Shown here: one piece after another, positions 24,814 through 59,443 of the stretch | How the letters are laid out: each line of letters begins with the position of its first letter | How positions within the stretch are numbered: position 1 is the first letter of the stretch | NCBI GenBank assembly: GCA_022822005.1 | Contig: JAJECO010000084.1 | Coordinates: 1-64,000 of the forward strand | Source: Candidatus Poribacteria bacterium | GTDB lineage: Bacteria; Poribacteria; WGA-4E; PCPOR2b | DNA: 64,000 nt | Direction: 5' to 3' | Translations under genes and position numbers: made by a program | The notes under the pieces: model-generated | What the model was told of the DNA's origin: nothing | Databases searched by the model: none | The model's input: only the letters and a program-made list of their open reading frames with translations

Positions 24814-25782
24814 CTACCGTCCAAGCCGTTTGAGCCAACCCCATACCGTCATTTGCATGCCCATCGGTGCTACAGCACGCGCAAATCTAGGGTCAAACCA
24901 CGCAGGGGCTCCTTCAGGCACATGATCATGGGTCAACCGTTGCTGGTTCCTGCCATCAGCGTCCATCACATACACCTTTGGAATTGGATCCCGAAGAGAT
25001 ATAAAGGCAATTTTTTTCCCAGTCGGCGACCACGCCGGATGCTGGTCTTCCTCAAAAAATGTGAGCCGACGGACGTTTTTACCGTTGGCGTTCATCACAT
25101 AAATACCGCCACCTGCTCTTGTGGATCTGAAGGCAATCTTTTTACCATCCGGCGACCACGCCGGATCGTTATCGCTTGCGCGATCATCGGTCAAGGGACG
25201 TATATTTCCTCCGTCGGTGTCCATCACATAGATGTCAAAATCGACTCTTTGCCGTCCCCCCGCGGCAAAGGCAATCTGTTTTCCATCCGGCGACCACGTA
25301 GGATGGAGATCACACCCATCTGGACGATTTGTGAGTCGGCGGATATTGTCACCATCGGCACCCATCACATAGATGTCACCCAATACCCCTAGTGGTCTTG
25401 AGTTGAAGGCAATCTGTCTCCCGTCCGGCGACCATGCAGGGAGGAATGTGACCGCTGGCTGCTCTGTGAGCAGACGGACATTCTCTCCATCGGCGTCCAT
25501 CACATAGATACCACCGTTTCCTCGTTTGGACCAGAAAGCAATCCGCTTGCCATCCGGTGACCACGTAGGACCCCCATCCCCGATAACTCCCTTTGTCAGC
25601 TTTTGCAGGTTCCTTCCATCGATATCCATGAGATGAATTTTCCAGTGTTCTTCATTGATTCTGCGGTTGAAAGCGATTTGCGGTTTATCGGGTGCCTGTC
25701 CCCAAACATTGCTCTGTGAGAAAGTACCGCCTAACAGAGCCGCATAGATCGAAACAACTGTTAAACAGTGCTTTCGATTCAT
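24814..25782 (-). CDS. Secreted TolB/PD40-type beta-propeller protein
   Basis: The 322-residue product has a signal peptide (MNRKHCLTVVSIYAALLGGT...) and five regular repeats '[TA]WSP[DT]G[KR][RQK]IAF' each followed by a 'IYVMDADG-N-R-LT' strand pair, forming one six-bladed TolB-like propeller. The last 16 residues (AVAPMGMQMTVWGWLK plus RLGR) match the tails of its paralogues. It heads away from the large plus-strand propeller and is first to end in a set of four tandem minus-strand paralogues, indicating local duplication. Confidence 0.82.
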   Translation of the reverse strand: MNRKHCLTVVSIYAALLGGTFSQSNVWGQAPDKPQIAFNRRINEEHWKIHLMDIDGRNLQKLTKGVIGDGGPTWSPDGKRIAFWSKRGNGGIYVMDADGENVRLLTEQPAVTFLPAWSPDGRQIAFNSRPLGVLGDIYVMGADGDNIRRLTNRPDGCDLHPTWSPDGKQIAFAAGGRQRVDFDIYVMDTDGGNIRPLTDDRASDNDPAWSPDGKKIAFRSTRAGGGIYVMNANGKNVRRLTFFEEDQHPAWSPTGKKIAFISLRDPIPKVYVMDADGRNQQRLTHDHVPEGAPAWFDPRFARAVAPMGMQMTVWGWLKRLGR

Positions 25783-25811
25783 TTTTCTACCTCCACATCA
25801 TTCACTTGGAA

Positions 25812-26723
25812 TCATAAGCCTAACCTGATCTGTCCCCAAGTTACATGCAATTTCCGCACAGGATCTACCGCCGCTGGACCATCAGGCCGCCAAGATGGCA
25901 GCGCGCCATCAAACAGTATGCGCCGATCCTTCCCATTGGCTTTCATCACACCGACTTTACTCTCACCAATCAACGAAACCGAAAAAGCAATATGCGTTCC
26001 CGTTGGCGACCATGACGGATAATACTCGCCCTTATCTGAGATGCGTCTGACGTTGCGCCCATTTGCTGCATCCATGAGGCAGATACCCCTGCCACCTCGA
26101 TTTGAGTAGAAGGCAATTCGACGCCCATTGGGAGACCAAGCTGGCGCGGCATCATTGAACGCATTATCGGTCAACCGACGTAATTTGCCGCCATCAACGT
26201 CGATGACGTAGATGTCGTTTTGCCGATCATGGCGGATGGTGAATGCAATCTGTTTTCCATCTGGCGACCAAGCGGCGTCCCGGAAACCGTTATCCCGCCC
26301 GTTGAAGAACACTTGGGTTTCTACTTTCGTTTCAAGATCAAAAATTATCAGTTCTTCAAACCTTGTGAAGGCAATTTTTGTGCCGTCGGGATGCCAAGAT
26401 GGCCGTCCCTTAAAATGAATAGGCACCAAGCGTTCCAGATTACGACCGTCTACATCCATCACGTAAACGTGGGTATGCACATCGGCAGTAAATGCAATTC
26501 TTTTCCCATCGGCTGACCAAGCTGGCCAACTTGGATCGGGTCTACTTTTTAAGGGTTGGGGAGCGGTTCCATCCGAATTGATGACAACAATTCCTATATC
26601 AGGGTTAAATGCCTTTGATACAAAGGCAATTTGGGAACCCCAAGCAAGATTCGCTTTAGAACCGAATCCCCCAATGCACCCAAACCCCACCGCAATGAAT
26701 ATAACAAACAGGACTTTTTTCAT
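25812..26723 (-). CDS. Secreted TolB/PD40-type beta-propeller protein
   Basis: From ATG 26723 the product has 303 residues, with a signal peptide (MKKVLFVIFIAVGFGCIGG) and five PD40 repeats (AWSADGKRIAF, SWHPDGTKIAF, AWSPDGKQIAF, AWSPNGRRIAF, SWSPTGTHIAF). An earlier in-frame ATG at 26786 overlaps the neighbouring gene and lacks a signal peptide, and AAGGAAAAATCAGA supports the later start. The tail AVDPVRKLHVTWGQIR aligns with the other propellers. The Cys17 within the signal might alternatively mark a lipoprotein, but no strong lipobox surrounds it. Confidence 0.8.
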   Translation of the reverse strand: MKKVLFVIFIAVGFGCIGGFGSKANLAWGSQIAFVSKAFNPDIGIVVINSDGTAPQPLKSRPDPSWPAWSADGKRIAFTADVHTHVYVMDVDGRNLERLVPIHFKGRPSWHPDGTKIAFTRFEELIIFDLETKVETQVFFNGRDNGFRDAAWSPDGKQIAFTIRHDRQNDIYVIDVDGGKLRRLTDNAFNDAAPAWSPNGRRIAFYSNRGGRGICLMDAANGRNVRRISDKGEYYPSWSPTGTHIAFSVSLIGESKVGVMKANGKDRRILFDGALPSWRPDGPAAVDPVRKLHVTWGQIRLGL

Positions 26724-26755
26724 TCTGATTTTTCCTTCAGCAGCAATTACCCCCC

Positions 26756-27775
26756 TCATTGCTTTTCTGATTTCAACCGCCCCCAAAATGTGACATGGTT
26801 GCCTCGTGTGTCAACAGGGAGCGACCGGTCGGGAACCACCCAAGTCGGGTACAGATCATGCCCCGGATGAGTGGTCACCTGCCTCGCTTCACCCCCATTG
26901 GCGTTAACGACGTAAATATCCCAGCCCGTTCGCCCTCGAGGCGACATGAAGGCAATCCACCGCCCATCGGGGGACCAAGCGGGTAAACGGTCTGATTTGG
27001 GGTGATTGGTCACTCTGACGATGTTGGCACCATCGGCGTCCATCACGTAGATATCCTCTTGACCGAGGTTGCGTAGATTGGAAGAGAAAGCAATCTTTGT
27101 CCCATCGGGGGACCAGGCAGGGGCTCGACCCCTTGGACTCAACCGAACGCGATTTCTCCCATTTCGGTCCATCACGAAGATGCCGTGGTCCTTCTCATTT
27201 GCGCCTGCTCCTCCACCCCCCGCGTTAAATACGATTCTTTCTTCATTGGGAGACCAGGAGGGATGGCTATTCTGGTGGTTTTCATGGGGTGCTTTTGTTA
27301 GCTGCTTCCAACCATCCCCGTCTGCCTTTATAATACAAATATTTGAACGGATCTCGTCCCGTAGCCGACATGCCAATGCCAACCACTTGCCATCCCCAGA
27401 CCAGTCAGGGTGGAAAAAATCCATCCCCAATCCTCGCAACTGAGCAGTGATGTTCTTCTGTTTTCCGGTGCCAAGTTCTAATACAAACAGATTACCTTCT
27501 TGTTTGGCGTTGCGCTGACTAAAGGCAACCCATTTGCCATCAGGAGACCACACCATGCCAACAGCGTTAGGGCTATGAAGCCACTTCCGCTCGTTAGTAC
27601 CGTCGGCGTTAATTAGGTAAACCTCTCTCTTACGCCCCTCTCGCTCCGAGTTAAACGCGATGATTCCGGTCGGTTCAGCAGACGCATAATCATAGATCAG
27701 TAGAAGAGATAGGGTTATCAGGTGTACCATCAAAAGGGGGTTAACGTCGGATTTGAGTTTCATCTGTTTTCTCAT
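26756..27775 (-). CDS. Secreted TolB/PD40-type beta-propeller protein
   Basis: The 339-residue product has a hydrophobic N-terminal signal (PLLMVHLITLSLLLIYDYASA) and five PD40 repeats such as 'AWSPDGTKIAF' and 'AWSPDGRWIAF', with strand pairs like 'DIYVMDADGANIVRVT'. The tail PVDTRGNHVTFWGRLK matches the conserved C-terminal pattern of the group. The start is uncertain between ATG 27775 and ATG 27763 because neither has a good Shine-Dalgarno. The gap to the next paralogue is 32 bases, so the two may share a transcript. Confidence 0.8.
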   Translation of the reverse strand: MRKQMKLKSDVNPLLMVHLITLSLLLIYDYASAEPTGIIAFNSEREGRKREVYLINADGTNERKWLHSPNAVGMVWSPDGKWVAFSQRNAKQEGNLFVLELGTGKQKNITAQLRGLGMDFFHPDWSGDGKWLALACRLRDEIRSNICIIKADGDGWKQLTKAPHENHQNSHPSWSPNEERIVFNAGGGGAGANEKDHGIFVMDRNGRNRVRLSPRGRAPAWSPDGTKIAFSSNLRNLGQEDIYVMDADGANIVRVTNHPKSDRLPAWSPDGRWIAFMSPRGRTGWDIYVVNANGGEARQVTTHPGHDLYPTWVVPDRSLPVDTRGNHVTFWGRLKSEKQ

Positions 27776-27801
27776 CGTTTTCGCAGAAATTTAGAATTAC
27801 T

Positions 27802-27829
27802 GAAACCGATGAACTTACCCATCGGTTTC
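27802..27829. repeat. Perfect 10-bp inverted repeat between propeller genes
   Basis: GAAACCGATG (27802-27811) and CATCGGTTTC (27820-27829) form a perfect stem with an 8-base loop in the 109-base spacer between two minus-strand propeller genes. No U tract follows on the minus strand, so it is not a clear terminator. It could be a transcript-stability hairpin or a protein-binding operator. Confidence 0.45.
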
Positions 27830-27884
27830 AAAACAGTGGCTTGGCTGCCCGCCATCTTTTAGCCGCCCTGATTGTCAGATTCAC

Positions 27885-28871
27885 CTACCGTCCAAGTCGT
27901 TTGAGCCAGCCCCATGTGACGACACGCTTACCAACGGTGGAAATCGCATAGGAGGACATGTCTGGGTCAAACCAAGAGGGTGTCCCGTCCCATCCTGCAT
28001 CATTGGTCAAATTGCGTAGATTCTTCCCGTTGACATCTATTACATAAATTTCTACGTTGTTGTTCATATCGTCTCGATGACTCATGAAGGCAATCCTTTG
28101 GCCATCGGGAGACCATGAGGGATCTTCGTTTCGAAAGCGACCGCGGGTCAATCGGCGAGGATTTCCTCCGTCAGCGTCCATGATACCTATGTCCCAGATC
28201 CAGTTGTTATCCTCCCAACCGCTTCTGAAGGCAATTCTTTGCCCATCGGGTGACCACGAGGGTTCGTGACCAACTCTCACCCCCAATTGACGAAGATTTT
28301 TTCCGTCGGCATCCATTACAAAGATTCCAGTTCCTTCGACGCGACTCGAAGTAAACGCAATCTTTCGACCGTCAGGAGACCAGTCCGGAGCCCAGTCACT
28401 CTCCGGATGATTTGTCAGGTTGCGGATATCCGTACCATCAGCGTTCATCACATAGATGTCGATGCCATCTGTATCTCTATGCGAGGAACTGAAAGCAATC
28501 TTTTGACCGTCAGGAGACCATGCCGGCTCACCTACAGCCCCTGGAAAATCTGTCAATTGACGGGTATTTTTCCCGTCGGCATCCATCACATAAAGGTCAG
28601 CCAGTACTCCGTTCCGCCTAGAGGCAAAGACAATTCTCCGACCGTCGGGTGACCACGTGGGCCAGGCATCCCAAGAGTGATGATTTGTCAGGTTACGAAC
28701 GTTCCTCCCGTCGGCACCCATTGCATAGATCTCAAGATTGCCATCACGACTGGAGGTAAAAGCAATTTGTGCTTTACGGGGGACTTGCGCTTCAACGTTT
28801 ACCGATAACATCAAAGTACTCAGCAGCCCAAAAAGAATGAGAATTGCACTTGAAATGTTCTTGGGATTCAT
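27885..28871 (-). CDS. Secreted TolB/PD40-type beta-propeller protein
   Basis: From ATG 28871 the product is 328 residues: a signal peptide (MNPKNISSAILILFGLLSTL, cleavage near VEA) and five highly regular PD40 repeats, '[TADS]WSPDG[RQ][RK]I[AV]F', separated by 'EIYAMGADG-NVRNLTNH'-type strands. It is the most regular of the five paralogues. The tail AISTVGKRVVTWGWLK plus RLGR is almost the same as that of the 24814-25782 product. An earlier ATG at 28916 precedes the Shine-Dalgarno AGAGGA and was not chosen. Confidence 0.83.
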   Translation of the reverse strand: MNPKNISSAILILFGLLSTLMLSVNVEAQVPRKAQIAFTSSRDGNLEIYAMGADGRNVRNLTNHHSWDAWPTWSPDGRRIVFASRRNGVLADLYVMDADGKNTRQLTDFPGAVGEPAWSPDGQKIAFSSSHRDTDGIDIYVMNADGTDIRNLTNHPESDWAPDWSPDGRKIAFTSSRVEGTGIFVMDADGKNLRQLGVRVGHEPSWSPDGQRIAFRSGWEDNNWIWDIGIMDADGGNPRRLTRGRFRNEDPSWSPDGQRIAFMSHRDDMNNNVEIYVIDVNGKNLRNLTNDAGWDGTPSWFDPDMSSYAISTVGKRVVTWGWLKRLGR

Positions 28872-29175
28872 TGAGAGTTCCTCTCTGAATTTGCAGATTG
28901 GATTGATAAAGCGCAACTTTTATACCAAACACGTGCAAATTTCAATGAGAAACGCTGTCGGAGGGAATCGTTGTGGATTGACGCTCTATCCTATTTAGAG
29001 AGCCTTGAGCAACGCAGCCTTAAAGCCGTTTTGAAATGGGACGGATTGTACTTATGCGTTAGAAATTGCCCGACACCGTGCAAACCGAAGGTCAATTTAA
29101 CCCCAAATGTGTGAGTGCACAACACCGTATTGGTCTCTCGGCAGAAAATCTGCGAAATCTATAAATCCGTGCTAA

Positions 29176-53526: not shown

Positions 53527-54591
53527 ATGACCTCGACTACAACCAATGATACCTTCAACGATGGCACCACCTTCGTAAGCGGTATTGATTTAGCTCGGAT
53601 GTTCTACATTGAGGTTGTGCGCCCGCTCATGGAAGGGCGAGACCATAGTGCAGCGAGACTAGGTTCAGGGTCGGATGTCCTCGGTTTTGACACCCCTCGA
53701 TCAACTGACCATGGTTGGGGTCCACAGCTACACCTTTTCGTAGCAGCCTCTGAGGTAGACACTATCCGCACAATTATCGATTCCGGTTTGCCAGAGGAGT
53801 TTCACGGCTGGTCCGTGCGCTTCGGTTGGGATGAAGTCGTCGTTCAGCATCACGTGCACGTTGGTCCCCTTGGGGAATGGCTGAAATCACATCTGGGATT
53901 CGATCCGCAGGTGGATATCACGGTCCAAGATTGGCTTACGACGCCGCAACAACTACTCCTTGAGGTGACAGCAGGTGCGGTCTTTCATGATCCCGACGGA
54001 GATTTGAGACGCGTTCGCAGTAAACTGGAGTGGTATCCAAACGATATTTGGCTATGGCTCTTGGCGTGTCAGTGGCGTCGAATCGCTCAAGAAGAGGCGT
54101 TTGTTGGTCGCACAGCTGAAGTGGGCGATGAACTCGGTTCACGAATCGTGGCAGCCCGAATCGTACGCGACCTCATGAGGCTCTGCTTCCTTATAGAACG
54201 GCAATATGCACCGTACAGCAAGTGGTTGGGCAGCACATTCCACAATCTCCGCATTGCCTCCGGACTCGCACCGCATCTGGATGCAGCACTTAAGGCGACG
54301 GACTACCCTACCAGAGAAACGGCACTCTGTTCCGCTTACGAATATGTCGCACATTGCTACAATCAACTAAACCTCACTCCTCCCGTCGATCCCGAAGTTC
54401 GCATGTTCTATAAACGTCCCTTTCGGGTGCTCGGAGGAGATCGATTCGCTAAGACGTGCCTGGCAGCCATCCAAGACAAGTGGTTGAGAAAGCAACCGCC
54501 TGTAGGAAGCATCGATCAGTTTGCAGATAGTACGGACATCCTCAGCAGTGCACATCGATCCAGGCGTCTGACCAATATCTATGACGATTGA
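53527..54591 (+). CDS. DUF4037 protein (nucleotidyltransferase-like), copy 1
   Basis: The 354-residue product resembles DUF4037 proteins: an N-terminal nucleotidyltransferase-like part with 'RLGSGSDVLGFDTPRSTDHGWGPQLHLFV', and a helical C-terminal part with 'RIVRDLMRLCFLIERQYAPYSKWLGSTF' and 'YNQLNLTPPVDPEVRMFYKRPFRVLG'. The 'STDHGWGP' motif is the strongest mark. The function of the family is unknown; it may transfer nucleotides to small molecules or act in resistance-like roles. A second copy lies at 58460-59443. AAGAGGAGAA supports the ATG. Confidence 0.78.
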   Translation: MTSTTTNDTFNDGTTFVSGIDLARMFYIEVVRPLMEGRDHSAARLGSGSDVLGFDTPRSTDHGWGPQLHLFVAASEVDTIRTIIDSGLPEEFHGWSVRFGWDEVVVQHHVHVGPLGEWLKSHLGFDPQVDITVQDWLTTPQQLLLEVTAGAVFHDPDGDLRRVRSKLEWYPNDIWLWLLACQWRRIAQEEAFVGRTAEVGDELGSRIVAARIVRDLMRLCFLIERQYAPYSKWLGSTFHNLRIASGLAPHLDAALKATDYPTRETALCSAYEYVAHCYNQLNLTPPVDPEVRMFYKRPFRVLGGDRFAKTCLAAIQDKWLRKQPPVGSIDQFADSTDILSSAHRSRRLTNIYDD

Positions 54592-55992: not shown

Positions 55993-56026
55993 AAGGGGAT
56001 TCTCAATAGATTGGGAATCCCCTTTT
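55993..56026 (+). terminator. Intrinsic terminator after the methyltransferase gene
   Basis: AAGGGGATTCTC (55993-56004) pairs with GGGAATCCCCTT (56013-56024), with one G-U pair, and T4 ends the stem. It separates the methyltransferase gene from the sigma-factor operon, which therefore has its own transcription unit starting after 56026. The sequence between 56027 and 56110 must hold that unit's promoter, but no good housekeeping -35/-10 pair is visible there. Confidence 0.78.
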
Positions 56027-56110
56027 GCGTTTAAGCATTATTTTCGATGCCTGATCCCGTTTTCTTCGTCATAATATCCTGAAAACACAAGCCGACGAGG
56101 TACTGTATTT

Positions 56111-56668
56111 GTGGAGGCATCATTCACCGAAGCGTATGAATTACATGTTGACGCTATCTATCGGTTTATTCTGCGGTTACTGGGAAATCCAACGGATGCC
56201 GAGGATATGACCGCCGAAACCTTTTTGCGAGCGTACCAAAGCTGGTCTGAGTTGCTCGACTCCGCATCTGTCCGGGCGTGGCTTTTTCGCATCGCATATA
56301 ATGGGTGCATTGACCTAATGCGCCAGCGTCAGCGATACTGGACGGTTCCATTGGATACGACCGCTGCGGACGAGATGGCGCAGGCGTTTACTAGCCCGGC
56401 AACTTCGACGGAAACTCCACTCAAGGAATTAATTCGTTCCGAAAGCGTGGAATTTTTGCAAGAAGCCCTACTTCAATTGCGTCCGATTGACCGGACTGTA
56501 CTGGTGTTGGGCGAATTGGAGGGCACATCGAATAGAGAAATTGCAGAAATCGTCCAACGGAGTGAAACCGCTGTGAAATCTCTTCGGCAACGTGCGCGGA
56601 AAGCCTTGCGTGATGAAGTGTTGCGCTTATTGAAACAACGGAACACATCGCTCAAGGACCTGTTCTAA
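56111..56668 (+). CDS. ECF-type RNA polymerase sigma factor with LKDLF C-terminus
   Basis: The 185-residue product has sigma region 2 (about residues 9-80: 'AIYRFILRLLGNPTDAEDMTAETFLRAYQSW', 'VRAWLFRIAYNGCIDLMRQRQR') and region 4 (about 117-172: 'LQEALLQLRPIDRTVLVLGELEGTSNREIAEIVQRSETAVKSLRQRARKALR'). Region 3 is absent, as in ECF factors. The start is GTG 56111 with GAGG upstream. After region 4 the protein ends NTSLKDLF, a hydrophobic-acidic tail like clamp-binding peptides. No anti-sigma gene is adjacent; instead a DnaN-like clamp gene follows 85 bases later on the same strand. Confidence 0.92.
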   Translation: MEASFTEAYELHVDAIYRFILRLLGNPTDAEDMTAETFLRAYQSWSELLDSASVRAWLFRIAYNGCIDLMRQRQRYWTVPLDTTAADEMAQAFTSPATSTETPLKELIRSESVEFLQEALLQLRPIDRTVLVLGELEGTSNREIAEIVQRSETAVKSLRQRARKALRDEVLRLLKQRNTSLKDLF

Positions 56669-56753
56669 ATTTGAACTGAGAAAGTACACCCAATGGGGCA
56701 TCGCTGGCGAAAAGACAGTTCCCGATACCTGCCCCGTGGATAGGGAGGAACCG

Positions 56754-57875
56754 ATGAAATTTACCTGTAATGTTGCTACGTTGAAACGTGCCTTAGCCCT
56801 GTTGAAACTTGATGAATCGAAAACGCACCTGTCAATAACAGCGGAAGCGGCGCAATTGCAGTTTCGATGCCACACTGATGATGGGAACTTCTGCATTGAC
56901 CACACGATTCCAGCCGAAGTTGAACTCCCCGGTACGGTAACCATTTCCGCAGATGCGCTGCCGCGCATTTGTGAATATACGGCTAGTGAGACGTTATTGT
57001 TCAGTCACCACGAAAGACATGGGTGTCTGGACATTGAAGGTGAGCAGCATCACCACGTCGTCCGTACATACGCCGAAAAAGGGCTGAACCCGGCACTTGA
57101 AGAACCGATAGATGTACACGAGTATGAAATTCCAGCGTCGCAGTTCGGGAGGTCACTGAATTCTGTTCTGTTCGCATCAGAAAAACCGTCAGACGCGGAA
57201 GGGGCGGAACGACGCGCTAGCATGTGGGGGGTACTTCTTCATCGGCATGATGGCGAATACCGAATCGTGACCACCGATGGCAAACGGATGGCGGTGTTGA
57301 CGTTGCCAGTCATGCGTGAGTTGGGGGACACGGAAACACCAGTCCCAAAACGAGCAATATCTTATAAAGCTTGTGTAAAAATAATTGACCTAATAGAATT
57401 CTTAAAGCCAGAGGTTTGCCGATTATGTTTCGCTGAAAACGCTGTGGGTTTTGAGGCTGAAGATGTTATGTTAAGGTGTCTCTTGCCACAAGAGAATTAC
57501 CCAAATTATCTATCCGTTTTGGAAGGTGCAGCCGCCCCTTTAGAGGTCAAGGTAAATCGCGAAAGGTTGCTCTGGGCACTCCGAATCATTCATGTGGAAG
57601 ATAATCCCAATCACCGCACCGAGTTTCGTTTCAGCGATGGACAGTTGACTGTTGGAAACAACACCCACTTGGGAAAATCGGAAGCTAGTGTGCCGATTCA
57701 GTATGAGGGTCCAGATACGGCCACAACCATTGATAGCTGGTTCTCTGAAGAAGCCCTCTTACATACCGACGCGACCAACGTTACATTCTGGCTGAATCCA
57801 GACACACACCGTTTGTCACCGATACTCCTTGATTTAGCACAAAGCTTTCGTTATCTTGTTATGCCCTTGAGATGA
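56754..57875 (+). CDS. Divergent DNA polymerase III beta clamp (DnaN) paralogue
   Basis: From ATG 56754 (GGGAGG 5 bases upstream) the product is 373 residues, the normal clamp length. It keeps the three-domain DnaN layout: 'MKFTCNVATLKRALALLKL' at the start, 'YRIVTTDGKRMAVLTLPV' where DnaN has its 'ATD--RLA' strand, 'LPQENYPNYLSVL' where DnaN has 'G-(F/Y)PDY--V', and the C-terminal 'YLVMPLR' strand. Much of the sequence between is unlike housekeeping DnaN. The surroundings are not the dnaA-dnaN origin region, so this is probably a second clamp. It lies between an ECF sigma gene and a small gene with clamp-binding-like motifs. Confidence 0.85.
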   Translation: MKFTCNVATLKRALALLKLDESKTHLSITAEAAQLQFRCHTDDGNFCIDHTIPAEVELPGTVTISADALPRICEYTASETLLFSHHERHGCLDIEGEQHHHVVRTYAEKGLNPALEEPIDVHEYEIPASQFGRSLNSVLFASEKPSDAEGAERRASMWGVLLHRHDGEYRIVTTDGKRMAVLTLPVMRELGDTETPVPKRAISYKACVKIIDLIEFLKPEVCRLCFAENAVGFEAEDVMLRCLLPQENYPNYLSVLEGAAAPLEVKVNRERLLWALRIIHVEDNPNHRTEFRFSDGQLTVGNNTHLGKSEASVPIQYEGPDTATTIDSWFSEEALLHTDATNVTFWLNPDTHRLSPILLDLAQSFRYLVMPLR

Positions 57876-58168
57876 TGCAAACAGATTTTTTCACCGACAC
57901 ACTCATACAATTGATGCGCGAAGTTTTCACTCAACAAGGGATTTCTTCCGAACAACGCGCCCGAATTTACGCCCGCATCGCATCGAATCGGAGCGTGGGG
58001 ACAGTGGAGCAGATGGATTTCTGGGGTACTTCAACGATTCTACCTGACGAACCGGCCGTTGAGGATACCCCGGAGGCAGATGAGGCGGATCAGCTCTGGC
58101 TGTTCACTGATTTTGGGACGCCGGAGACCTCCGTCGAACCAACCACATTTTCGTTATTCCACAGTTGA
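57872..58168 (+). CDS. Small acidic protein with clamp-binding-like peptides
   Basis: The 98-residue product overlaps the clamp gene by four bases (ATGA), so the two are cotranslated. I know no family for it. Residues 3-38 form a likely amphipathic helix pair; the rest is acidic and probably disordered. It contains QLWLF at 74-78, close to the QL(S/D)LF consensus by which bacterial proteins bind the DnaN clamp, plus the weaker QMDFW (47-51) and TFSLF (92-96). It is followed by a terminator, making it the last gene of the sigma-clamp unit. A role as a clamp partner or coactivator is inferred. Confidence 0.7.
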   Translation: MMQTDFFTDTLIQLMREVFTQQGISSEQRARIYARIASNRSVGTVEQMDFWGTSTILPDEPAVEDTPEADEADQLWLFTDFGTPETSVEPTTFSLFHS

Positions 58169-58212
58169 CCCATTAAAGCCACATAGTCAATCAAATTGAA
58201 ATCTCAACATAG

Positions 58213-58248
58213 AAAAAGCCTAGTTGGAGAGTCCAACTGGGCTTTTTT
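58213..58248 (+). terminator. Intrinsic terminator closing the sigma-clamp operon
   Basis: AAGCCTAGTTGGA (58216-58228) pairs with TCCAACTGGGCTT (58232-58244), with one G-U pair and a 3-base loop. An A5 run precedes the stem and T6 (58243-58248) follows it. It marks the end of the ECF sigma / clamp / small-protein transcription unit about 45 bases after the last stop codon. The A-run also allows some activity on the other strand. Confidence 0.9.
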
Positions 58249-58459: not shown

Positions 58460-59443
58460 ATGAAAGGATTTGAACTATCAGAGCGATTCTTCCGGGAGAT
58501 TGGGCTTCCTACCATTGAACAGCGATTGCCTAGGTGTATCCCGAGACTGGCAGTGGGAGTTGGTGAAGGCTCACAAGCGCACAAGAACGACGACGAGGTG
58601 TCTCGTGATCACGGTTGGGGGCCGGGATTCACGGTGTGGTTTGCCAAAGAAGATTTCAATGATTACGGCGAGCATCTACGGGAAGTACTCGGTACGCTGC
58701 CCAATGCGTATGACGGATTTCGATGGAGGAATCCACCGGCTAGGACCTGTGGTGTAATCGAAATCGGCAGCTATATAGAATCTGTAGTCGGATTTTCAGA
58801 GCCTCCCGAGTCGCTTATGGACTGGTTGCGAATACCAGAATCGCATCTGTTTGAACTAACCCCGAGCAGGCTTTATCACGATGGGCCTGGTATTGTCAGT
58901 GCGCGCTTTAGGGCGTTCTCTAAATACCCCGATGATGTATGGAAGCAGCGAATGGGAGCTTGCCTTTCTTGGCTCTGGGAGTGGGGACGAAAGCATCTTT
59001 TCAGGGCAGAAGCTCGACGAGACTATGTGAGCGCATCTTGCTATTGGGCGCGATTCGCCGAATACGCAATGAAGGTTGGTTTTCTAATGAGTCAGAATCA
59101 TGCACCCTACCACAAATGGTTGTGGAAAGAGTTTAGAAAGTTAGGTGCTATTGCCGACGAAGTTTCTCCTTTGCTGGAGGAGGGATTCGAGAAGGTAAAT
59201 GGTAGACGAGAACTGGTTGACCGCATAGAGATGATCTATATGGAGATGCTTCAGAAGTTGGGCTTTTCATCAGAAATCACGGTCCAAGTAGCTGCCGGAA
59301 GATTGGCCTATCCGGACAATGCACTACTTCGATATGCTCAGAGTGTTCGGGGCACAATTGAAGATCCAGAAATCAAGAAGCTACACTTGAGAGAAGAACT
59401 TGTCTATCCAGCAACTAAGGCTGCATGGACGTGGTTACGATAG
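58460..59443 (+). CDS. DUF4037 protein (nucleotidyltransferase-like), copy 2
   Basis: The 327-residue product shares the plan of the copy at 53527-54591: an N-terminal part with 'GVGEGSQAHKNDDEVSRDHGWGPGFTVWF', then 'RLYHDGPGIVSARFRAFSKYPDDVWKQRMGACLSWLWEWG' and a helical 'EYAMKVGFLMSQNHAPYHKWLWKEFRKL'. The shared 'DHGWGP' and 'APY-KWL' motifs show the relation, but overall divergence is large, so this is an old duplication or separate acquisition. CGCGGAGGACTCT supports the ATG. Function unknown. Confidence 0.77.
   Translation: MKGFELSERFFREIGLPTIEQRLPRCIPRLAVGVGEGSQAHKNDDEVSRDHGWGPGFTVWFAKEDFNDYGEHLREVLGTLPNAYDGFRWRNPPARTCGVIEIGSYIESVVGFSEPPESLMDWLRIPESHLFELTPSRLYHDGPGIVSARFRAFSKYPDDVWKQRMGACLSWLWEWGRKHLFRAEARRDYVSASCYWARFAEYAMKVGFLMSQNHAPYHKWLWKEFRKLGAIADEVSPLLEEGFEKVNGRRELVDRIEMIYMEMLQKLGFSSEITVQVAAGRLAYPDNALLRYAQSVRGTIEDPEIKKLHLREELVYPATKAAWTWLR

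Follow-up and report, generated by a model that had tools for sequence, protein, structure and literature searches.

A conserved operon and independent gene fusions pair ECF sigma factors with sliding clamps in Poribacteria

Why would an ECF sigma factor, a second sliding clamp and a small acidic protein be encoded side by side in a bacterial chromosome? This question is raised by a 64,000-nucleotide stretch of DNA (hereafter, the window) from a Poribacteria MAG of 6.0 Mb in 97 contigs, in which three plus-strand genes encode an ECF sigma factor (56111-56668), a DnaN paralogue that we denote DnaN2 (56754-57875) and a 98-residue acidic protein (57872-58168). An earlier note on this DNA had described these genes as one plus-strand unit between two terminators and proposed that it couples the sigma factor to a dedicated clamp, in a manner resembling the late-transcription module of phage T4. 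The unit is indeed present, and the last two genes share the letters ATGA, an exact 4-base overlap. The upstream intrinsic terminator (55993-56024, plus strand), with a 14-pair stem and a T-rich tail, was called by the terminator tool, is also found in G004 and isolates the operon from the genes upstream. The downstream one (58213-58248, plus strand), a palindrome with AGTTGGA-GAG-TCCAACT at its core and a T run behind it, was read by eye and is listed by the tool in minus-strand form only.

Genes for DUF4037 proteins lie on both sides of the operon (53527-54591 and 58460-59443), and elsewhere in the window (24814-28916) four consecutive minus-strand genes encode secreted-looking proteins assigned, by eye only, to TolB/PD40-type beta-propellers. 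The sole PADLOC match in the surroundings of the locus is a generic methyltransferase next door, with otherwise no defence match. No relatives of the module were found in the phages, plasmids and viral contigs searched, which leaves a phage origin without support.

The sigma gene (plus strand) starts with GTG at 56111 and encodes a protein of 185 aa that ends in TSLKDLF. Regions 2 and 4 are intact (Pfam Sigma70_r2, 4.7e-16; r4_2, 1.4e-13), and the restriction to these two regions, together with an ECF-type promoter with a CGTC -10 element, places the protein among the ECF sigma factors; it has no C-terminal extension domain of the kind found in ECFs regulated by such extensions. Its orthologues are 91, 72, 75 and 45% identical, the last being that of G062, and pairwise dN/dS is 0.09-0.14. 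The four genomes G000, G004, G006 and G012 contain ~31-41 matches to sigma region 4 each, many of them in frames of 400-1250 aa, suggesting that large C-terminal sigma extensions are general in Poribacteria.

The C-terminal tail LKDLF (56651-56665, plus strand) is a candidate clamp-binding peptide. The form [LI][KE]DLF is retained in all four orthologues, with LDDLLK in the distant G062, and occurs at the end of none of the ~24 unfused control ECFs (from 30 control ECF loci in four genomes); thus, this ending, singled out in the earlier note, does not vary freely. Glutamine matters in bacterial clamp-binding motifs, and the tail has no leading Q, which makes the sigma-tail half of the clamp-binding proposal the weaker one.

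DnaN2 (plus strand) is a divergent sliding-clamp paralogue of 373 aa when read from the better start, ATG at 56754, which is preceded by the Shine-Dalgarno sequence GGGAGGA. It matches the three-domain clamp over its full length: NCBIfam TIGR00663 over residues 9-379 (4.8e-23), the PHROG clamp family phrog_947 (3.7e-30) and clamps in the PDB (best, 4e-22). The TIGR00663 score of 81.7 bits falls under the equivalog cut-off of 137.65, which points to a paralogue and not to DnaN proper. In the host genome, canonical dnaN adjoins dnaA, recF and gyrB (neighbours named from sequence), and its product is 21% identical to DnaN2. Pairwise dN/dS of DnaN2 is 0.18-0.25. When the G062 clamp was searched against ~200 genomes from other phyla, no match had an E-value below 2e-31, while clamps of its own kind reached 2.6e-152; the matches examined were canonical-type clamps or adjoin dnaA. 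Two further Poribacteria genomes contain unfused dnaN paralogues, extra or in tandem, outside the canonical locus (L049 4583-7094, G024:C57; L021, G029), and in genus g8 clamps are often duplicated.

At most positions of the peptide pocket (T172, G174, L177, P242, V247, V360 and M362-R365 in E. coli numbering, in part after PMC3716654), DnaN2 has the same residue or a conservative replacement, so that the pocket is recognised by residue conservation. Alignment to the E. coli clamp shows that the R24 loop is deleted and that E. coli-type DNA contact residues are changed. Also mostly replaced are positions K74, R96, R103, R105, E298, E300, E301 and E304, the salt-bridge partners at the dimer interface of the E. 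coli clamp; some of the E. coli interface residues differ in the canonical Poribacteria clamp too. The net charge of the hole-lining helices is comparable in DnaN2 and the canonical Poribacteria clamps and does not separate them, so that DnaN2 may still form a ring. The loss of the R24 loop and of the E. coli-type interface residues makes it uncertain that DnaN2 is loaded on DNA. An AlphaFold model of DnaN2 (two sequences) had a pLDDT of 38.6 and no usable fold.

The small protein (57872-58168, plus strand) contains 17 D/E against 5 K/R residues and is predicted by AlphaFold to form a helical hairpin (residues ~6-44, pLDDT ~66-84) followed by a disordered acidic tail (pLDDT below 50), which in the model is the anatomy of a tethered adaptor. 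Orthologues are 78, 49 and 48% identical, with pairwise dN/dS of 0.29-0.41. The protein has no family match in Pfam, NCBIfam and PHROG and no recognised flap-binding domain. The disordered tail carries a candidate clamp-binding motif, QLWLF (residues 74-78; 58091-58105, plus strand), close to the consensus QL[S/D]LF or, more generally, QxxLF (PMC12309361). As the earlier note had anticipated for a clamp ligand, this motif does not drift: it is invariant in four of four orthologues and in a decayed remnant in G009, within an otherwise variable tail, has the counterpart QLELY in the distant G061, and a QLxLF pattern arises by chance in the shuffled protein with p = 0.002. The two further motifs suggested at the same time fared less well, because QMDFW varies to QVDLW or GMELW, in which W alone is constant, and only two of the four orthologues keep TFSLF.

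The gene order is conserved beyond the source genome. Among the 85 Poribacteria genomes surveyed, the intact operon with the same order is present in G000, G004, G006 and G012, spanning four species, three genera and two families; the overlap of the final two genes is 4 bases long in three of these operons and a single base in G012. A distant version exists in a third family, where G062 has the same order with a sigma factor 45% identical to that of the window, and where the clamp and small genes of G061 lie at the start of a contig. Remnants were detected as well: in G009 (L042 5486-6196), an internal deletion left only the ends of the locus, with the promoter and the QLWLF tail surviving, and in G070 (L043 431-1276), a sigma-clamp remnant persists after an internal deletion. 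Altogether, the module or its remnants occur in only ~8 of the 85 genomes, and in pairwise dN/dS comparisons all three genes are under purifying selection. In G062, the tail of the small protein differs and QLxLF was not found in it; an IS200-like transposase gene lies just downstream of the small gene (L045 4609-5232). The small gene there is truncated, and its clamp motif was probably lost through the IS200-like insertion.

Upstream of the sigma gene, we identified a putative autoregulated ECF-type promoter, TTTCGATGCC-N15-CGTCATA (56042-56073, plus strand). The pattern TTYCGRTSCC-N15-CGTCWTA recurs with identical spacing upstream of sigma at six loci, including that of the distant G062, and CGTC is a typical ECF -10 element. 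Without mismatches, the motif occurs exactly once per whole genome, before the sigma gene, in G000, G004, G006, G012, G009 and G062, and is absent from the whole genomes of the operon-less relatives G001, G002 and G005; this pattern, built on these very loci, is a strict one that may miss weaker targets, and with three mismatches allowed, 1.5 chance matches are expected per window. The simplest reading is that the operon looks autoregulated, with a very small regulon. Given that the single exact promoter is the operon's own, there is no sign of a regulon of late genes.

Elsewhere in the phylum, sigma factor and clamp are joined covalently, which is a new finding of this work. Tracing DnaN matches in unusually long frames, we identified, in no fewer than 13 further Poribacteria genomes, single ORFs of 473-617 codons that fuse an ECF sigma in frame to DnaN. 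Lineage A is represented in G048, G084, G082, G026, G036, G078, G045 and G055 (loci L061/L115 from G048:C1, with the ORF at 4949-6733 of L115, and L116, L118, L086, L087, L101, L108 and L082), and lineage B, with a different ECF sigma lineage, in G031, G039, G050, G047 and G019 (L111 388-2133; L112 1036-2781; L113 8787-10529; L114 994-2736; L117 5254-7017). A Pfam scan of the two types found all three clamp domains in both; the clamp of the G084 fusion (L082) is shortened. The assemblies of G048, G026, G050 and G019 are single contigs, making chimeric assembly an unlikely source of the fusions, and the frame stays open across linkers of varying length, which argues for translated fusion proteins. 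A Shine-Dalgarno-like sequence is retained just before the clamp ATG (AAGGAGG in type A), suggesting that free clamp may also be made besides the fusion. No small-protein gene was found next to the fusions.

In a maximum-likelihood tree of clamps, the window type (support 100/98), fusion A (100/99) and fusion B (100/100) form separate clades, with the fusion A clamps nested among those of genus g8; the long branches leading to the window-type clamps make their deeper position unsure, but the tree sets them apart from A and B with good support. The sigma tree likewise resolves the window, fusion A and fusion B sigmas as three ECF lineages. Sigma and clamp were thus joined at least three times. 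This recurrent pairing, the independent fusions included, supports a functional sigma-clamp link.

The clamp is one of several fusion partners. Relatives of the fusion A sigmas occur fused to FtsZ alone (L121, L124, L126, L130) or to FtsZ and the PHP-NTPase-finger part of DnaE (L128 577-4875 in G035; L131 in G022; L099; L097); the DnaE in the latter is an extra copy, a normal DnaE being also present. WD40 or BNR repeats are found on other Poribacteria ECF sigmas. A recognised class of ECFs bears protein-interaction extensions, is regulated by them and has no anti-sigma gene (PMC8999054), and in Poribacteria these extensions include core replication and division proteins. We therefore toned down a simple Rosetta stone reading of the sigma-DnaN fusions: with the same sigma family fused to FtsZ, DnaE and WD40, and BNR repeats also among the ECF partners in the phylum, a clamp fusion by itself says less here than it would in other settings.

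Taking these observations together, we tentatively favour, as a possibility somewhat short of probable, a self-contained and self-regulated cassette in which the clamp paralogue is the dedicated partner of the ECF sigma factor. The sigma factor would read the promoter upstream of its own gene, so that sigma, DnaN2 and the small protein are produced together. Its C-terminal DLF tail would occupy the DnaN2 peptide pocket, and the small protein would use QLWLF to dock in the same kind of pocket, either at the second site of the dimer or in competition with the sigma factor. Occupancy of the pocket would set the activity of the sigma factor, and the cassette would report the state of the clamp or of replisome partners, the operon achieving by docking in trans what the fusions achieve covalently in cis. 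The clamp may activate the sigma factor, as in T4, or restrain it. The gene order, the conservation of motif, pocket and promoter, the purifying selection and the three independent sigma-clamp pairings are observed features, and we infer the docking, the sign of its effect on the sigma factor and the signal. The missing Q of the sigma tail, the rarity of the module and its decay by deletion in G009 and G070 count against this cassette, as do the Shine-Dalgarno sequences before the fused clamps, the lack of the small gene beside the fusions and the many other fusion partners of ECFs in the phylum. The coupling to a dedicated clamp put forward in the earlier note is upheld in part, by the conserved order, the motifs and the independent fusions, and its T4-style mode of activation is partly contradicted.

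In that mode, a DnaN2 ring loaded on DNA would tether the sigma-RNA polymerase complex through LKDLF and the small protein, so that cognate transcription follows replication. The same three kinds of part, with conserved motifs, do occur in one operon, and fusions occur elsewhere; in T4, short C-terminal clamp-binding motifs hold gp55, gp33 and gp45 together, and activation requires the motif of gp33 (PMC7892883), and gp55-gp33 fusion proteins remain functional (PMC2988020). The window sigma, however, retains region 4, DnaN2 lacks the R24 loop and the E. coli-type interface salt-bridge residues, and the single exact promoter per genome is that of the operon. On these grounds we rank a regulatory partner above a DNA-tracking activator, consider T4-style activation rather unlikely and retain the likeness to T4 as an analogy only. 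We regard as unlikely, too, a purely local switch in which the sigma factor serves only to express a spare clamp and an adaptor that binds clamps, for repair or polymerase exchange under stress, and makes no contact with the clamp: a promoter found solely before the operon and the common duplication of clamp paralogues in Poribacteria would fit, but the conserved DLF end, unique to the window sigma among the control ECFs, and the independent covalent fusions would be left over.

The pocket of DnaN is also a target of the toxins SocB and RipA (PMC12795458). This precedent, the rare, accessory and decaying character of the module and the tight ATGA coupling would suit a toxin and decoy antidote, with the small protein blocking the clamp via QLWLF, DnaN2 serving as a co-translated sponge and the sigma factor autoregulating the pair. 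We know of no toxin-antidote system that includes a sigma gene or whose antidote resembles a clamp, and the fusions lack the small gene, which makes this arrangement very unlikely; purifying selection on the three genes does not discriminate for or against it. Hardly credible is a duplicated drug target, with the spare clamp conferring resistance to a clamp-binding antibiotic as GriR does for griselimycin. A spare, diverged clamp is a known route to self-resistance, but no biosynthetic cluster was recognised, by eye, among the neighbouring ORFs, the pocket, which is the drug site, is the conserved part of DnaN2, and the small protein would go unexplained.

The dedicated-partner cassette may belong to a broader theme. 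A possible but doubtful generalization is that Poribacteria have a whole class of wired sigma factors, tied to copies of replication and division proteins (DnaN in trans or in cis, FtsZ and FtsZ-DnaE), the state of which would set promoter choice, the window operon being the in-trans member. To our knowledge, T4-like phages offer the only known case of a sigma factor coupled directly to a sliding clamp, and no paper on a bacterial sigma-clamp module was found in the open-access literature. If the wired-sigma reading is true, the window operon would be the first cellular counterpart of the clamp-coupled transcription of T4. The chromosomal operon and the fusions make coupling of transcription to the replication clamp directly testable in cells, and they extend the list of possible ECF sigma regulators to sliding clamps.

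Compared with known systems, the window operon shares with the SocAB and RipA toxin-antitoxins a small protein putatively aimed at the clamp pocket but adds a sigma factor and a clamp paralogue and has no antitoxin homologue, a SocAB/RipA homologue being absent from the libraries searched. DnaN2 belongs to the same three-domain family as the bacterial beta clamp DnaN, with the pocket kept, but is a second copy distinguished by its low identity, the deleted R24 loop and the replaced E. coli-type interface residues. The T4 late module (gp55, gp33 and gp45) consists of the same kinds of part as the window operon, namely a sigma factor, a sliding clamp and a small acidic protein, with short hydrophobic-acidic clamp-binding peptides that have candidate counterparts in the window, but no sequence kinship with the window operon was found. 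Whereas gp55 lacks region 4, the window sigma has it in addition to the C-terminal DLF, so that a gp33-like flap protein is not needed; set against gp33, a coactivator that binds the RNAP beta flap and the clamp, the small window protein has a conserved candidate clamp motif, no family match and no recognised flap-binding domain. Unlike gp45, DnaN2 has the three-domain build of bacterial clamps, and its ring residues are doubtful; the operon, in contrast to the T4 module, is chromosomal and apparently self-regulated, with no regulon seen. In the extension-regulated ECFs, as in the window, the operon contains no anti-sigma gene, and their partner-domain layout is matched by the sigma-DnaN fusions; the proposed partner in the window, by contrast, is a sliding clamp encoded as a separate protein and putatively reached by the tail peptide of the sigma factor.
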